In this document: positions 8,388 to 43,041 of the stretch, in pieces | Layout of the letters: each line of letters opens with the position of its first letter | Numbering within the stretch: the stretch's first letter is position 1 | Source: a virus | Virus record (IMG/VR): IMGVR_UViG_3300024265_000106 | Location: 1-43,041 of that record | Direction: 5' to 3' (one strand) | Length of the DNA: 43,041 nt | The notes under the pieces: generated by a model | Databases searched by the model: none | Told to the model about the DNA's origin: nothing | The model's input: the letters and a program-made list of their open reading frames with translations, nothing else | Position numbers and translations under genes: made by a program

Positions 8388-8561
8388 TCACCAAACAAAA
8401 TCAGGTTTTTTCTTTTCTATGTACTCCATAACAAAATCTGCAATGTCTTCAATTGAACACCTTATAGCAGGGCTACCATCGTTAGGAAAAAAAACGAACG
8501 CTCCGTTTTCCAGGTCTGGCGGTTCAGCTTCTGGTAAGTCTGTTATTTTTCCTTTGAGCAT
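8388..8561 (-). CDS. Small acidic protein of unknown function
   Basis: A 57-residue frame begins at ATG with AAGTGAAAGGAAAGG upstream, the same extended ribosome site as the neighbouring gene. Residues include LKGKITDLPEAEPPDLENGA and a C-terminal helix ending KKKPDFVW. It overlaps the upstream gene by 38 bases on the same strand, which is common in this operon. No domain recognised. Confidence 0.55.
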   Translation of the reverse strand: MLKGKITDLPEAEPPDLENGAFVFFPNDGSPAIRCSIEDIADFVMEYIEKKKPDFVW

Positions 8562-8955
8562 ATTCCTTTCCTTTCACTTGGTTGTCTAATGCTTGTCGCA
8601 ATTCGTCCGCGGTCAGGGTGTTCCACTGTTTCCATTGTTCCTTGCTGGTTGCTTCGATGATTTTGCGGTAGCGGGGGCGGGTGGGCTTGGGCGGCTTGAT
8701 GAGTCTTTCGTAAAGTTTATCTATTGCGGGAATTATATACCTACTTGGTGGTTGTTTGCCAGTGTAAATATTGCGGATGTAAGAGTACGTCCAGGGTTGG
8801 TTTTTCCTGGGGTTATACGGGTTGAGCTTGAGTGCGACTCTTCGGCATGCTTCGGGGTCTGTTCGGCCCTCTAATTGAAAAATGCGAAAAACGAAAAACA
8901 GCCTCTCCACTGATTTTTGTAAATCTAATTTTTTAGAGTTCCTTTCGTTTGTCAT
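8524..8955 (-). CDS. Helical basic protein, possible DNA-binding regulator
   Basis: This 143-residue protein is read from ATG; an in-frame TTG 36 bases upstream is an alternative and neither has a strong ribosome site. The chain is basic and helical. A central segment, QPWTYSYIRNIYTGKQPPSR, has the spacing of a helix-turn-helix recognition helix, and KPPKPTRPRYRK is a basic linker. DNA binding is a guess from composition. An inverted repeat GCCCT/AGGGC lies just upstream at 8976-8996 and might be a control site. Confidence 0.45.
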   Translation of the reverse strand: MTNERNSKKLDLQKSVERLFFVFRIFQLEGRTDPEACRRVALKLNPYNPRKNQPWTYSYIRNIYTGKQPPSRYIIPAIDKLYERLIKPPKPTRPRYRKIIEATSKEQWKQWNTLTADELRQALDNQVKGKEYAQRKNNRLTRS

Positions 8956-9018: not shown

Positions 9019-9576
9019 TCAACTTGTTAAGGCCTGCTCTTCCAGGATGTCGTAATACTCAAGTAGTTTTTTTATAAATTTCTTTTTGCTTCCACCTTTC
9101 TTGTTAATTTTTACGTTGCCTTTTGCATATCTGTGAGCGTCCGGTTCGATCTCGGCTTCTCGTAGTTCGCCCAACCACCTTTGCCATTCGGTTCTTTCTG
9201 CCATTTCCGTTTCATACTCCTCATCGTAACACTCAGCACAGAGGAACAAAGACGGCGAATGAATGCGATAAGCAAACGGAAGCATACAGTCTGTACAGGT
9301 TGCCCTCCTGGTTCGTTTATATTTCCGCCTCGATAAGATGTATTGTCTTTTCTGGTCAATATCTTCAAAATGTTTGCTTCCTGCAAGTGCGTTGCAAAAC
9401 ATACATACGGGAACAAGGTTATTGAAGTCGTTGTCATTGTCCCAAGAAAGCGGGACAACATGATCTATACAAGTTGCTATTTGGTCACGGCAATAAAAGC
9501 AAGTCCTCCCGTGCATTTCTATTAAATCGTCCCAATGTTTTCTATAATGGTACGATCTTCTTTTGGTGTCTCTCAT
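9019..9576 (-). CDS. HNH endonuclease with a second zinc ribbon
   Basis: This 185-residue protein is read from the ATG with AGGATT upstream. The HNH core is clear: C26-x2-C29, IDH at 37-39, N52/N53, and C58-x2-C61 followed by N62 and H69. A second zinc ribbon uses C94/C97 and C113/C116, and the C-terminal tail is lysine-rich. The frame continues 44 codons upstream through a stem-loop and promoter, but that extension would start before the predicted transcript start and is rejected. The gene is preceded by its own promoter and structured leader. It may be a mobile homing nuclease or a DNA-processing enzyme. Confidence 0.8.
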   Translation of the reverse strand: MRDTKRRSYHYRKHWDDLIEMHGRTCFYCRDQIATCIDHVVPLSWDNDNDFNNLVPVCMFCNALAGSKHFEDIDQKRQYILSRRKYKRTRRATCTDCMLPFAYRIHSPSLFLCAECYDEEYETEMAERTEWQRWLGELREAEIEPDAHRYAKGNVKINKKGGSKKKFIKKLLEYYDILEEQALTS

Positions 9577-9589
9577 GCTCAATCCTAAA

Positions 9590-9702
9590 GACACAAAAAG
9601 CCTGACACCAATTGCCGCTAAGCTGAGACGGAATCTCGTTGGTGTCAGGCTGCTTATGCCCTTATTAAGTTTTAAAGTAGAAGTTCCGTCAATGCTTAGC
9701 GT
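9590..9702 (-). ncRNA. Structured leader RNA / attenuator ahead of the HNH gene
   Basis: From the predicted transcript start near 9702 the RNA begins CGCUAAGC. A perfect 13-bp stem (AGCCTGACACCAA on the minus strand, 9651-9639, with 9611-9599) encloses 27 nt and is followed by TTTTTG, a terminator signature. The enclosed segment contains a small GAGA/UCUC hairpin and GCUUAGCG (9623-9616), which is exactly complementary to the RNA 5' end (9701-9694). The RNA could be a short terminated transcript or a switchable leader for the HNH gene. Stem and complementarity are seen; function is inferred. Confidence 0.55.
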
Positions 9703-9708
9703 TACCAT

Positions 9709-9717
9709 ATTATACCA
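9709..9717 (-). promoter_or_regulatory. Extended -10 promoter (TGGTATAAT) for the HNH leader
   Basis: The minus strand reads TGGTATAAT, a perfect extended -10 element. No good -35 box is visible at 16-18 bp. The same nine bases occur upstream of the replication gene and of the 93-residue gene at 22.1 kb. Confidence 0.6.
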
Positions 9718-11499: not shown

Positions 11500-11517
11500 T
11501 TTAATTTGCAAATTAAA
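11500..11517. promoter_or_regulatory. AT-rich 18-bp palindrome, copy 1 (operator candidate)
   Basis: TTTAATTTGCAAATTAAA is perfectly self-complementary. It lies between two leftward genes, overlapping the stop of one and running into a GGAG sequence upstream of the other. Two further copies are at 14018 and 23296. Confidence 0.6.
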
Positions 11518-14017: not shown

Positions 14018-14035
14018 TTTAATTTGCAAATTAAA
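14018..14035. promoter_or_regulatory. AT-rich 18-bp palindrome, copy 2 (operator candidate)
   Basis: TTTAATTTGCAAATTAAA is identical to the copy at 11500. It sits in the gap upstream of the zinc-finger/methyltransferase operon, before its ribosome site. Confidence 0.65.
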
Positions 14036-15193: not shown

Positions 15194-15205
15194 TATTGCC
15201 TCAAC

Positions 15206-15286
15206 AAATCAGAGCAGCCAACGTCCGCCATGTAGGACGCTAACTGCTCTGATTTTTCAATAAGGTAGTATTTTATTAACATGGCA
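15206..15286 (-). ncRNA. Structured leader RNA of the replication gene
   Basis: A perfect 12-bp stem (15255-15244 with 15217-15206) encloses 26 nt that form a second hairpin, CGTCC/GGACG, with loop TACATGGC. The predicted RNA 5' end, GCCAUGU (15285-15279), is exactly complementary to ACAUGGC in this loop (15233-15227). An adjoining 5' segment, UUGCC, can also pair with GGCAA next to the start codon, so the fold could control translation. Complementarity is seen; a switching role is inferred. Confidence 0.55.
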
Positions 15287-15291
15287 ATATG

Positions 15292-15300
15292 ATTATACCA
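15292..15300 (-). promoter_or_regulatory. Extended -10 promoter (TGGTATAAT) for the replication gene
   Basis: The minus strand reads TGGTATAAT. No convincing -35 box is present. Transcription would start near 15286 and give a 5' leader of about 90 nt before the replication gene. Confidence 0.6.
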
Positions 15301-15302
15301 TT

Positions 15303-15569
15303 TTACAGCGATTTGAGAAAGTCGATTTCTATTACGTCGTCGGTTATATCTTTAGCCGAGAACACCGGCAGAGACTCTACGATTACATTAAAGACTTTTT
15401 TGTTCTCTTTGTTTTCATCAAAGACAAAAACATTTATTTCTGTAGGCCAATCAAGGCTTGCGAAACAACGCTCAACGAAAGATTCAGCAGCTTCTTGTGC
15501 GTCGTCGGCTGTGATTTTTTTGTCTTCTTCACTCTCCCAATAATGGGCACGGGCATACCAGGTTTTCAT
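15303..15569 (-). CDS. Small phage protein, paralogue of the gene at 11.0-11.2 kb
   Basis: This 88-residue protein is read from the ATG preceded by AAGGAGAAG; an upstream in-frame TTG would include the ribosome site itself. It shares block order with the 77-residue protein at 11 kb: KTWYARAHYWES, ITADDAQEAAESFVE, SLDWPTEINVFVFDE and LPVFSAKD. It probably adopts a small alpha/beta fold. Function unknown. Confidence 0.6.
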   Translation of the reverse strand: MKTWYARAHYWESEEDKKITADDAQEAAESFVERCFASLDWPTEINVFVFDENKENKKVFNVIVESLPVFSAKDITDDVIEIDFLKSL

Positions 15570-16014: not shown

Positions 16015-16072
16015 AATATTCCTTTTATTTCGTTCTAGTTAGTTAATAACACTCTGGCTTATTATCAACAAC

Positions 16073-16202
16073 TCTATTCAGGGTGTCCAGGTCGCTCGAC
16101 TGGCTTTTCCCCACGGCGTTTTTCAGCACTAGGCAAAAGAGCCGGCATGATTCCTATAACGTGGGGTCTGGCACAATCTACCCTCGATGCACCCTGAATA
16201 GA
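16073..16202. ncRNA. Candidate branched structured RNA of about 130 nt
   Basis: A perfect 13-bp outer stem (TCTATTCAGGGTG with CACCCTGAATAGA) encloses 104 nt. Inside are a hairpin CCAG(G)TC-GCTC-GACTGG (16087-16103) and a seven-bp stem CCCCACG/CGTGGGG (16109-16115 with 16160-16166) closing a further loop. GCCGG (16141) and CTGGC (16168) could add a pseudoknot. No T-run follows on either strand, so it is not a simple terminator. The strand is undecided: it lies in the leftward operon after an HNH gene, but TATTAT at 16060 would put a rightward start at the outer stem. Confidence 0.5.
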
Positions 16203-16220
16203 ATCGTCGATGTTAAGGTT

Positions 16221-23263: not shown

Positions 23264-23300
23264 AGGGAGCCTCAGGCCACGAGGTTCCTTTGCTTTTAAT
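23264..23300 (+). terminator. Terminator/attenuator between regulator and terminase
   Basis: GGAGCCTC (23266-23273) pairs with GAGGTTCC (23281-23288) around AGGCCAC, extendable by A-U and G-U pairs, followed by a T-rich tail (TTTGCTTTTAATTT). Confidence 0.6.
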
Positions 23301-23311
23301 TTGCAAATTAA
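23296..23311. promoter_or_regulatory. AT-rich palindrome, copy 3 (operator candidate)
   Basis: TTAATTTGCAAATTAA shares the central 16 bases of the copies at 11500 and 14018. It lies between the consensus promoter and a second promoter before the terminase genes. Confidence 0.6.
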
Positions 23312-23321
23312 CGGTGTTTTT

Positions 23322-41452: not shown

Positions 41453-43041
41453 TATTATTGTCACCCTGAAACTAACAGATGAATTAACAAAAGGGATGGA
41501 GAAGGCCACCGCCTCAACCAAAGAGTTTGAAAAAACCCTAGAAGTTACTGAGGAATCGGCCAAAACACTCATTAAGCAATTTGCGGACTTGGGCGTTAAT
41601 ACAGACGAGATGTCTAATGAGTTTCTCGCCCTTAACCCTGAAGTGAAAAAATCCATAGCATTATTGGACAAGTTGGGCGTAACATCAGGAAAATCGGCCA
41701 AAGGCATAAAGGAATTTGAAAGAAAAGAAAAGGAAGCCGAAAAACAAAGCAAGAAACTCAAAACTCAATTAAAGGGGCTAGTCAAAGGTTTTCTTGGGAT
41801 CAGTGGGGCGCTCGTGGCTGGCAGGGCATTGGCTAATTTCGCAAAAGACGCATTGGCGGCGGCTGATGCAGCAGGCAAATTGCCACCCATTTTTGATGAG
41901 GCAGAAAAAACAAGCCAAAGACTAAAAGAAGCCGCTGGAGAACAGTTGGCTGGAGGACTTGAAAAATCCAAACATGCTTTTGTTGCGCTGGCAGAGCCTA
42001 CCATAAAGAATTTAGAATTATCAAACAGGTTGACTGACGCGCGCAGGAAAGGATTAATCACGGAAATAGAATTCAACCGCATGAGAACAGCACAAAAAGG
42101 TGGTCAAGAAGCAAGTTTACGAATATCCAGAGCGCTTCTAATATTAGAGCAGCAACATAATCAAGTGGCATTAACTGGAAATGAAATACTGGCTCAAAGG
42201 GTGGCTGAAGTAGAGAGGCTCGAAGCATTAAGGTTCGCAAGCGTCGCCGAAGCCGGGATCACCGTGACGACTGCCGACGAGATTGCCGAGAGAGTTCAGG
42301 CAGAATTAGAAGCACTGAGACAAAAACAAACACTTTTGGAAAGCATCACCTCGCTTGAAGCAAGAGCAGGAAGAGCAGGCGACATCCCTGCCACCCGCCC
42401 CCTTGACGCGAACCTGAGGGCGCTTGGCCCAGCGGGGGTCACGCCGATAAGCGGGGACGCCTTTGGGGTTCAGAGCGATTTGTCCGCCCAGGTTGGCGGG
42501 GCGATAGACCAACTCCAGTTATACGAACAGGGGCAACTAGAAGTTCAAGATACTTATGATCTAATTGTCATGGCGTATAAAGACGGGCTGTTGTCAATAG
42601 AGGCCACAGAAAGGGAAATGACGAAGGTAGCGGTTCAATCGACCAGAAACTCATTGGCTGCGGGAGATTTCAATACCGAGCAGCAGGCGGCGATTGCTTT
42701 GGCGGGGGACCTGGGAATTACAATGGGGGAAGCACTTGAGATGATTAGAAACATGGATACCGCTGCGGAAGGGCTGCCAACTGGCATTGCAGATGCCGGC
42801 GAGGCGGTTGACGAACTACAACTTAGCCTAGATAAACTAACGAGGACCCCTTACAGGGTGAATATAGCAGTCAATATTCTGGGTTTGCCCGGGGGCATTA
42901 CTTTGCCTGCTTTGCCGAGTGGAGGCTTTGGAACAGGGACAACCTCGACTGTTGGGTTTGCTTCAGGCGGTAGCCTCACGGTTCCTCCGGGCTTTCCAAA
43001 CGATTCGTTTGGAATTGGCGTTTCATCTGGCGAAGAGGTTA
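41445..43041 (+). CDS. Tail tape measure protein (N-terminal 532 codons; ends at left edge)
   Basis: With the 43 codons at the left end of the window the full protein has 575 residues, short for the family; at about 0.15 nm per residue the tail would be near 85 nm. The chain is helical with coiled-coil runs (KEFEKTLEVTEESAKTLI, KEFERKEKEAEKQSKKLK). A hydrophobic stretch (GLVKGFLGISGALVAGRAL, residues 111-129) and a Gly/Ser-rich end complete it. It sets tail length and may help DNA entry. The start overlaps the chaperone extension as ATGCCTGA. Confidence 0.85.
   Translation, partial: MPDIIVTLKLTDELTKGMEKATASTKEFEKTLEVTEESAKTLIKQFADLGVNTDEMSNEFLALNPEVKKSIALLDKLGVTSGKSAKGIKEFERKEKEAEKQSKKLKTQLKGLVKGFLGISGALVAGRALANFAKDALAAADAAGKLPPIFDEAEKTSQRLKEAAGEQLAGGLEKSKHAFVALAEPTIKNLELSNRLTDARRKGLITEIEFNRMRTAQKGGQEASLRISRALLILEQQHNQVALTGNEILAQRVAEVERLEALRFASVAEAGITVTTADEIAERVQAELEALRQKQTLLESITSLEARAGRAGDIPATRPLDANLRALGPAGVTPISGDAFGVQSDLSAQVGGAIDQLQLYEQGQLEVQDTYDLIVMAYKDGLLSIEATEREMTKVAVQSTRNSLAAGDFNTEQQAAIALAGDLGITMGEALEMIRNMDTAAEGLPTGIADAGEAVDELQLSLDKLTRTPYRVNIAVNILGLPGGITLPALPSGGFGTGTTSTVGFASGGSLTVPPGFPNDSFGIGVSSGEEV
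42916..43041 (+). repeat. 126-base terminal direct repeat, right copy
   Basis: Identical to positions 8-133 and in the same frame of the tape measure gene. It allows the contig to be closed into a circle of 42,915 bases. Confidence 0.9.

Follow-up and report, generated by a model that had tools for sequence, protein, structure and literature searches.

The window comprises the complete 43,041 bases of an IMG/VR virus record and carries on its minus strand a gene for a DnaD-like replication initiation protein. The leader of this gene (15194-15300) lies between it and a small gene of unknown function, which ends at 15303. A second leader with the same promoter box stands in front of an HNH endonuclease gene, and the features of both are collected in Table 1. 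In the following, A is the segment with which the RNA is predicted to begin, A' is its complement in the hairpin loop, and B and B' are the two arms of the stem. Transcription start sites are predicted ones (+1), which were read off from the -10 elements.

Table 1. Features of the two leaders in the window and of the genes behind them
Feature	Position	Strand	Remark
Extended -10 element TGGTATAAT	15292..15300	-	DnaD leader
Weak -35-like TTCTCA	15319-15314	-	16-nt spacer to the -10 element of the DnaD leader
Segment A, GCCAUGU (GCCATGT in DNA)	15279..15285	-	predicted RNA 5' end; partner of the hairpin loop
B, 5' arm of outer stem, AAAUCAGAGCAG	15244..15255	-	DnaD leader
Outer stem AAATCAGAGCAG / CTGCTCTGATTT	15255-15244 / 15217-15206	-	12 bp, perfect
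Inner stem UUAGCGUCC / GGACGUUGG	15243-15235 / 15226-15218 (span 15218..15243)	-	9 pairs, 3 G.U
Hairpin loop UACAUGGC	15234-15227	-	8 nt; DnaD leader
A', ACAUGGC in the loop	15227..15233	-	exact complement of A
B', 3' arm CUGCUCUGAUUU	15206..15217	-	followed by weak U tract AUUUGUUG
GGCAAUA beside the start codon	15194..15200	-	complement of UAUUGCC (15289-15283); chance-level
DnaD-like replication initiation protein, 283 aa	14342..15193	-	phrog_270, E 1e-11; 37-40% identity to phage DnaD-like proteins
TGGTATAAT of the HNH leader	9709..9717	-	same promoter box as in the DnaD leader
A segments of the HNH leader, CGCUAAGC (9701-9694) and GACGGAA (9690-9684)	9684..9701	-	
Hairpin of the HNH leader	9599..9651	-	13-bp stem (9651-9639/9611-9599), 27-nt loop, U tract after; terminator-like
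A' segments in the HNH loop, UUCCGUC and GCUUAGCG	9633-9627, 9623-9616	-	
HNH endonuclease gene	9019..9576	-	ATG at 9576-9574; PF01844, E 2e-5; phrog HNH and endonuclease VII families

The two leaders of the window

For the DnaD leader, an earlier note had described the promoter box, a 5'-terminal GCCAUGU, a perfect 12-bp outer stem and an ACAUGGC loop. We located all of them as described, on the minus strand, and the exact complementarity of GCCAUGU to the loop of the inner hairpin was confirmed (15285-15279 with 15233-15227). The first base of GCCAUGU lies 7 below the -10 element, approximately at the expected +1, and the segment matches 7 of the 8 loop bases. The inner and outer stems are continuous (15255-15206), giving 21 pairs, 3 of which are G.U, and none of 200 shuffles reached the stability of this fold (z = -8.5). 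Because the three G.U pairs turn into A.C mismatches in the RNA of the opposite strand, it is the minus-strand RNA, from the strand of the gene, which makes the better hairpin. As for the pairing between A and the loop, dinucleotide-shuffled 5' segments gave a 7-nt match 1040 times in 50000 at a segment length of 20 nt and 373 times in 50000 at 36 nt, and 40 of 5000 shuffles were as good when the 5' end was compared with the whole 26-nt inner region. Taken singly, the 7-bp match in this leader is moderately unlikely by chance (p ~0.01).

The HNH leader (9717-9574, minus strand) has the same layout with other letters. Its first two dozen or so nucleotides pair with the 27-nt loop in 8 + 7 + 3 bp, the U tract UUUUUGUGU ends the hairpin, and the HNH gene comes next. 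In a promoter-anchored scan of 513 kb of contigs, it turned out that the DnaD and HNH leaders were the top two sites; TGGTATAAT occurs a third time in the window (22092), where no leader of this kind is present.

Several other features were seen in the window. Its ends are identical over 126 bp (8-133 and 42916-43041), which indicates a circular or terminally redundant genome. The palindrome TTTAATTTGCAAATTAAA is found at 11500-11517, 14018-14035 and 23295-23312 (twice exactly, once with one change); these may be operator sites of a phage regulator. Besides, an imperfect 28-nt inverted repeat (16058-16085 / 16190-16217) encloses 104 bases in an intergenic position.

Ten leaders in five phage contigs

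The order promoter, A, B, A', B' and gene is present at ten leaders in five phage contigs and is rare elsewhere: two of the leaders are in the window, four in G016, one in G017, one in G028 (L085) and two in G025. All of them have, in this order, a promoter, A at the 5' end, the first stem arm (B), a loop containing A' and the second arm (B'); in many a U tract comes next, and a Shine-Dalgarno (SD) sequence and the start codon complete the series. The five phages are loosely related, with DnaD, primase and methylase in common, and blastn detected no sequence shared between the leaders. The A:A' helix has 7-18 bp, and A starts 4-10 nt past the -10 element, approximately at the predicted +1, in seven leaders. 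A stable hairpin exists in all ten, and a run of at least five U follows it in six; the U tract is weak in the DnaD, G016b and G017 leaders and absent in the TnpB leader. The three linkers measure 4-67 nt (L1), 0-46 nt (L2) and 1-21 nt (L3).

The leaders were reached by different routes. G016a (L086) was found among collected DnaD homologues; there, TTGACA/TGGTATAAT comes immediately behind the gene before it, the hairpin measures about 30 bp, T6 is present, and the loop pairs with upstream segments in two stretches (11-12 bp and at least 8 bp). Scans for the A-B-A'-B' order yielded the other three G016 leaders, the one of G017 and the one of L085, and G025a (L203) was located by searching the tail motif TTTTTGTTTCTAGGA. 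Most matches of this motif were chance or ordinary terminators, L203 being the one genuine new case. For example, near 2447 of L153 and near 1929 of L229 (minus), a terminator tail is fused to the SD sequence (TTTTTGTTTCTAGGA) directly before a gene, without 5'-end pairing. At L085 minus 2931, a high score for upstream-loop pairing comes without promoter context and was taken as chance.

Genes behind the leaders code for DnaD (window and G016a), HNH proteins (window, G017 and L085, the Pfam match of the last falling below the curated cut-off), a primase-like protein (G016c) and TnpB (G025b), and two are unknown genes. The G025a leader heads an operon which contains a 49% identical relative of the primase-like gene of G016c. 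With 18 bp, the TnpB (IS605 OrfB) gene of G025 (L268:18768-20000) has the most extensive 5'-end:loop pairing among the ten.

To what extent this exceeds chance was judged mainly by the least biased test, in which the exact pattern TTGACA-N13..15-TGGTANNAT was searched and the promoters of L086 and L203, the route to those contigs, were left out. The pattern has 4 matches in G016, 3 in G025 and 0 in the six other records searched. Four of the five promoters which had not been used for discovery of the family (G016b, G016c, G016d and G025b) show the A-B-A'-B' order, and the fifth (G025 20662) runs straight into a gene without it. The dinucleotide-shuffled 5' segments which paired with the loop as well as the real one numbered 0, 292, 0 and 0 respectively, each of 5000. 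With 1207 looser promoters in 2.2 Mb, we got 13 matches against 8 in shuffles, a total near the shuffle level; scores above the shuffle maximum of 49 occurred almost only in the five phages, and in the exceptions, L031 (61.5) and L204 (51.0), the distance from the -10 element down to A is 41 and 119 nt. When 398 genomes were scanned for a promoter combined with a U tract, a single site came up, and its A-B-A'-B' score is at chance level. Since most of the ten instances were found partly via complementarity, a product of p-values over the family would be an unfair probability. It is the recurrence at ten leaders which makes the 5'-end:loop pairing convincing, unlike the DnaD leader taken singly, and recurrence with unrelated sequences argues for selection on structure. 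The suggestion of such selection, which had been drawn from two unrelated genes, is supported by the ten leaders of five phages.

A search in relatives, one of the checks proposed at the outset, found the same order at other leaders but no homologue close enough for covariation. In DNA and protein searches of phages and viral contigs, the leader, the DnaD gene and the HNH gene had no relatives near enough; none of the ten leaders has a close homologue among the sequences searched, and the gene relatives in cultured phages are too distant for leader comparison. The same A and A' letters follow TATAAT in six viral contigs, none of which has the hairpin. In G017, the nearest relative of the DnaD gene that was found lacks a leader of this kind, so the element appears to have been gained and lost. 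In a short search of the open-access literature, no description of a leader with 5'-end:hairpin-loop pairing was found, and the design is apparently a repeated RNA architecture undescribed so far. Searches for structured RNAs depend on related sequences; this element keeps only its pairing order and its place after a promoter, so sequence-based searches would miss it, and it was found by searching for the arrangement.

Folding order and the proposed switch

To follow the folding, minimum free energy (MFE) structures were computed stepwise. In all eight leaders tested, A:A' formed earlier than B:B' and stayed in the MFE fold from the emergence of A' until B' was nearly complete, after which B:B' replaced it. 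We also compared the two pairings at the termination point, with the U tract in the polymerase (14-nt footprint), setting the A:A' state against the portion of B:B' already out; the two were treated as separate, pseudoknot-free states. A:A' was lower in energy in nine of the ten leaders. The exception is the DnaD leader (B:B' -17.6 vs A:A' -13.3 kcal/mol), in which the two are about equal at a 16-nt footprint. At full length, B:B' was lower in all ten. In these computations A:A' precedes the presumed terminator hairpin and competes with it, as is expected of an attenuator.

Since A:A' comes first, B:B' later, and A:A' is favoured at the termination point in nine of ten leaders, we propose the 5' end as an antiterminator acting on its own hairpin. 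Co-transcriptional antitermination by the 5' end over an attenuator hairpin is the best explanation, in our estimate slightly short of an even chance, and the element probably decides whether transcription runs into the gene. RNA polymerase would initiate at a promoter of the TGGTATAAT type, and the first 7-18 nt (A) would bind A' as soon as the loop emerges. The A:A' helix would enclose arm B and hinder B:B' while the polymerase crosses the hairpin base and the U tract, so that transcription would tend to go on into the gene. If A were unavailable or the polymerase paused, B:B' would form in time and transcription would stop before the gene; once the polymerase has passed, B:B' would be the more stable fold. 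What the computations show is the arrangement at ten leaders, its scarcity elsewhere and the sequence of folding; the transcription starts, termination, antitermination and the control of A are what we infer here. Any such effect is predicted to be the weakest of the ten in the DnaD leader, given its 7-bp A and weak U tract. Speaking against the switch are the TnpB leader with its missing U tract, the weak U tracts of three others (the DnaD leader among them), the advantage of B:B' at the termination point of the DnaD leader, and the G017 relative of DnaD which lacks the element.

We tentatively suggest, going one step further and with less confidence, that this may be a sequence-independent phage RNA device, in which a transcript's own 5' end serves as antiterminator on the loop of an attenuator hairpin. 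With a private code in each copy, replication, HNH and TnpB genes might be set separately, with no protein factor and no cross-talk. If the mechanism is true, it means a protein-free setting of replication and nuclease gene expression.

The main rival is a static pseudoknot, in which A:A' and B:B' exist together and the 5' end, tucked in the loop, shields the mRNA from 5'-end-dependent decay and gives a fixed structure near the ribosome site. It takes this rank because the linkers mostly leave room for both helices and because no U tract is necessary, so that the TnpB leader, which has none, and the DnaD leader are covered; the position of A, which in most leaders coincides with the predicted +1 or adjoins it, also agrees with this reading. 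However, the 4-nt linker of G016a cannot span the long stem for an 11-bp A helix, and stability alone does not account for the U tract that follows B' immediately in six leaders, and we regard the static form as somewhat unlikely. Ranked next, and unlikely, is action in trans as self-antisense, comparable to P4 CI and P1 C4, by which abortive or terminated leader RNAs would bind the A or A' segment of newly made transcripts, so that expression would fall or rise with increasing template number. A lies at +1 within the length range of abortive RNAs, terminated leaders would contain both A and A', and in the 5 kb of P4 that were searched, no region scores higher for A-B-A'-B' than the leader region. 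A precedent is the reported relief of a T7 terminator by abortive RNAs (Lee et al. 2010, as cited in PMC11347151). Against this, intramolecular pairing of A with A' should outpace pairing in trans, there is no known processed RNA, and the leaders match neither C4 nor any other Rfam family. Whether abortive RNAs matter naturally is a question for which these leaders offer a concrete place.

The earlier note had also proposed that UUGCC could pair with GGCAA beside the DnaD start codon, giving two exclusive states which set replication protein output. The complementarity exists and extends to 7 bp (15289-15283 with 15200-15194), and it is part of the predicted MFE fold, but it is at chance level (p = 0.33). 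The two exclusive states are not supported: the other nine leaders have no significant counterpart, and SD accessibility is not consistently changed, which leaves such a translational switch improbable. Pairing of the 5' end with the ribosome binding site (RBS) was significant in none of the ten leaders, and between the A and B states SD accessibility showed no consistent difference across them, the SD sequence being inside B' only in G017. A leader that masks the SD sequence was rejected, both tests being against it. As the competition in the computed folding is between the 5'-end:loop helix and the hairpin itself, it points to attenuation or antitermination rather than start-codon masking. 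A DNA-level element, i.e. a regulator site or an extruded cruciform for which RNA pairing is irrelevant, could draw on A and A' being inverted repeats in DNA as well. We hold it to be very improbable, considering that the leaders have no sequence in common and a fixed place after the promoter, that departures from Watson-Crick pairing on the transcribed strand are 15 G.U vs 1 A.C (the detector favoured G.U), and that the DnaD hairpin has three G.U pairs. The least probable reading is chance, namely a terminator-like hairpin whose loop fortuitously matches the 5' end. The p of ~0.01 for the DnaD leader by itself would leave room for it, but ten leaders in five contigs, and 0 of 5000 shuffles at three promoters chosen regardless of pairing, make chance very unlikely for the family as a whole.

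Comparison with known leader RNAs

In 2010, Lee, Nguyen and Kang reportedly found that in T7 the first transcribed bases are complementary to a terminator hairpin and are able to block termination. The phage leaders here likewise have an initial transcribed sequence complementary to a hairpin; in T7, however, T7 polymerase is involved and the RNA acts in trans on an arm of a distant terminator, whereas here the RNA start is matched by a hairpin loop of its own leader.

Replication genes of plasmids offer other parallels. The attenuators of pT181 repC and its relatives also combine a replication-initiator leader with an upstream pairing that competes with an intrinsic terminator. In pT181, the arm of the terminator is bound by an antisense RNA which is transcribed from the other strand; no opposite-strand promoter was established for the phage leaders. 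In the rep pseudoknot of ColIb-P9 and IncB, a hairpin loop in a replication-gene leader is bound to a distant segment as well, but that segment lies further down, at the ribosome site, and the pairing activates translation. The put RNA of HK022 consists of two adjacent hairpins with conserved sequence and causes persistent antitermination; it resembles the proposed device as an RNA at the start of a phage transcript which suppresses termination, and differs in having no 5'-end pairing to a terminator loop.

Rfam models at gathering level had no match in the window or at the other leaders. The best permissive matches (microRNA and plastid models) were far below cut-offs and were discarded as noise, and so was RAGATH-7 (13 bits against a cut-off of 112). 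With no sequence shared in blastn and no Rfam match, the leaders do not have the conserved ligand-binding core of a riboswitch. Pairing of a 5' end inside a second helix recalls the HDV-like ribozymes, which we set aside on the sequences, since a P3-like hairpin is missing from the DnaD leader and the length of A:A' ranges over 7-18 bp. Contig G016, the phage with four leaders, contains a match to int-alpA RNA (RF02996; L131:16409-16474).

The immunity RNAs CI of P4 and C4 of P1/P7 are processed antisense RNAs which act in trans on one operon. Upstream segments complementary to the loop of a downstream hairpin in the same phage leader are common to them and to the design described here, as would be premature termination, and all ten leaders have such a segment. 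In contrast, several unrelated copies per phage are present here with no Rfam match, and the C4 model (RF01695) had no match on the two window leaders even at permissive level. The P4 leader region itself (L273 ~1930-2070; ~8430-8570 of the P4 record, minus) has the same A-B-A'-B' order, which is reminiscent of the known seqA/seqB pairing of P4, and it overlaps an annotated coding sequence.
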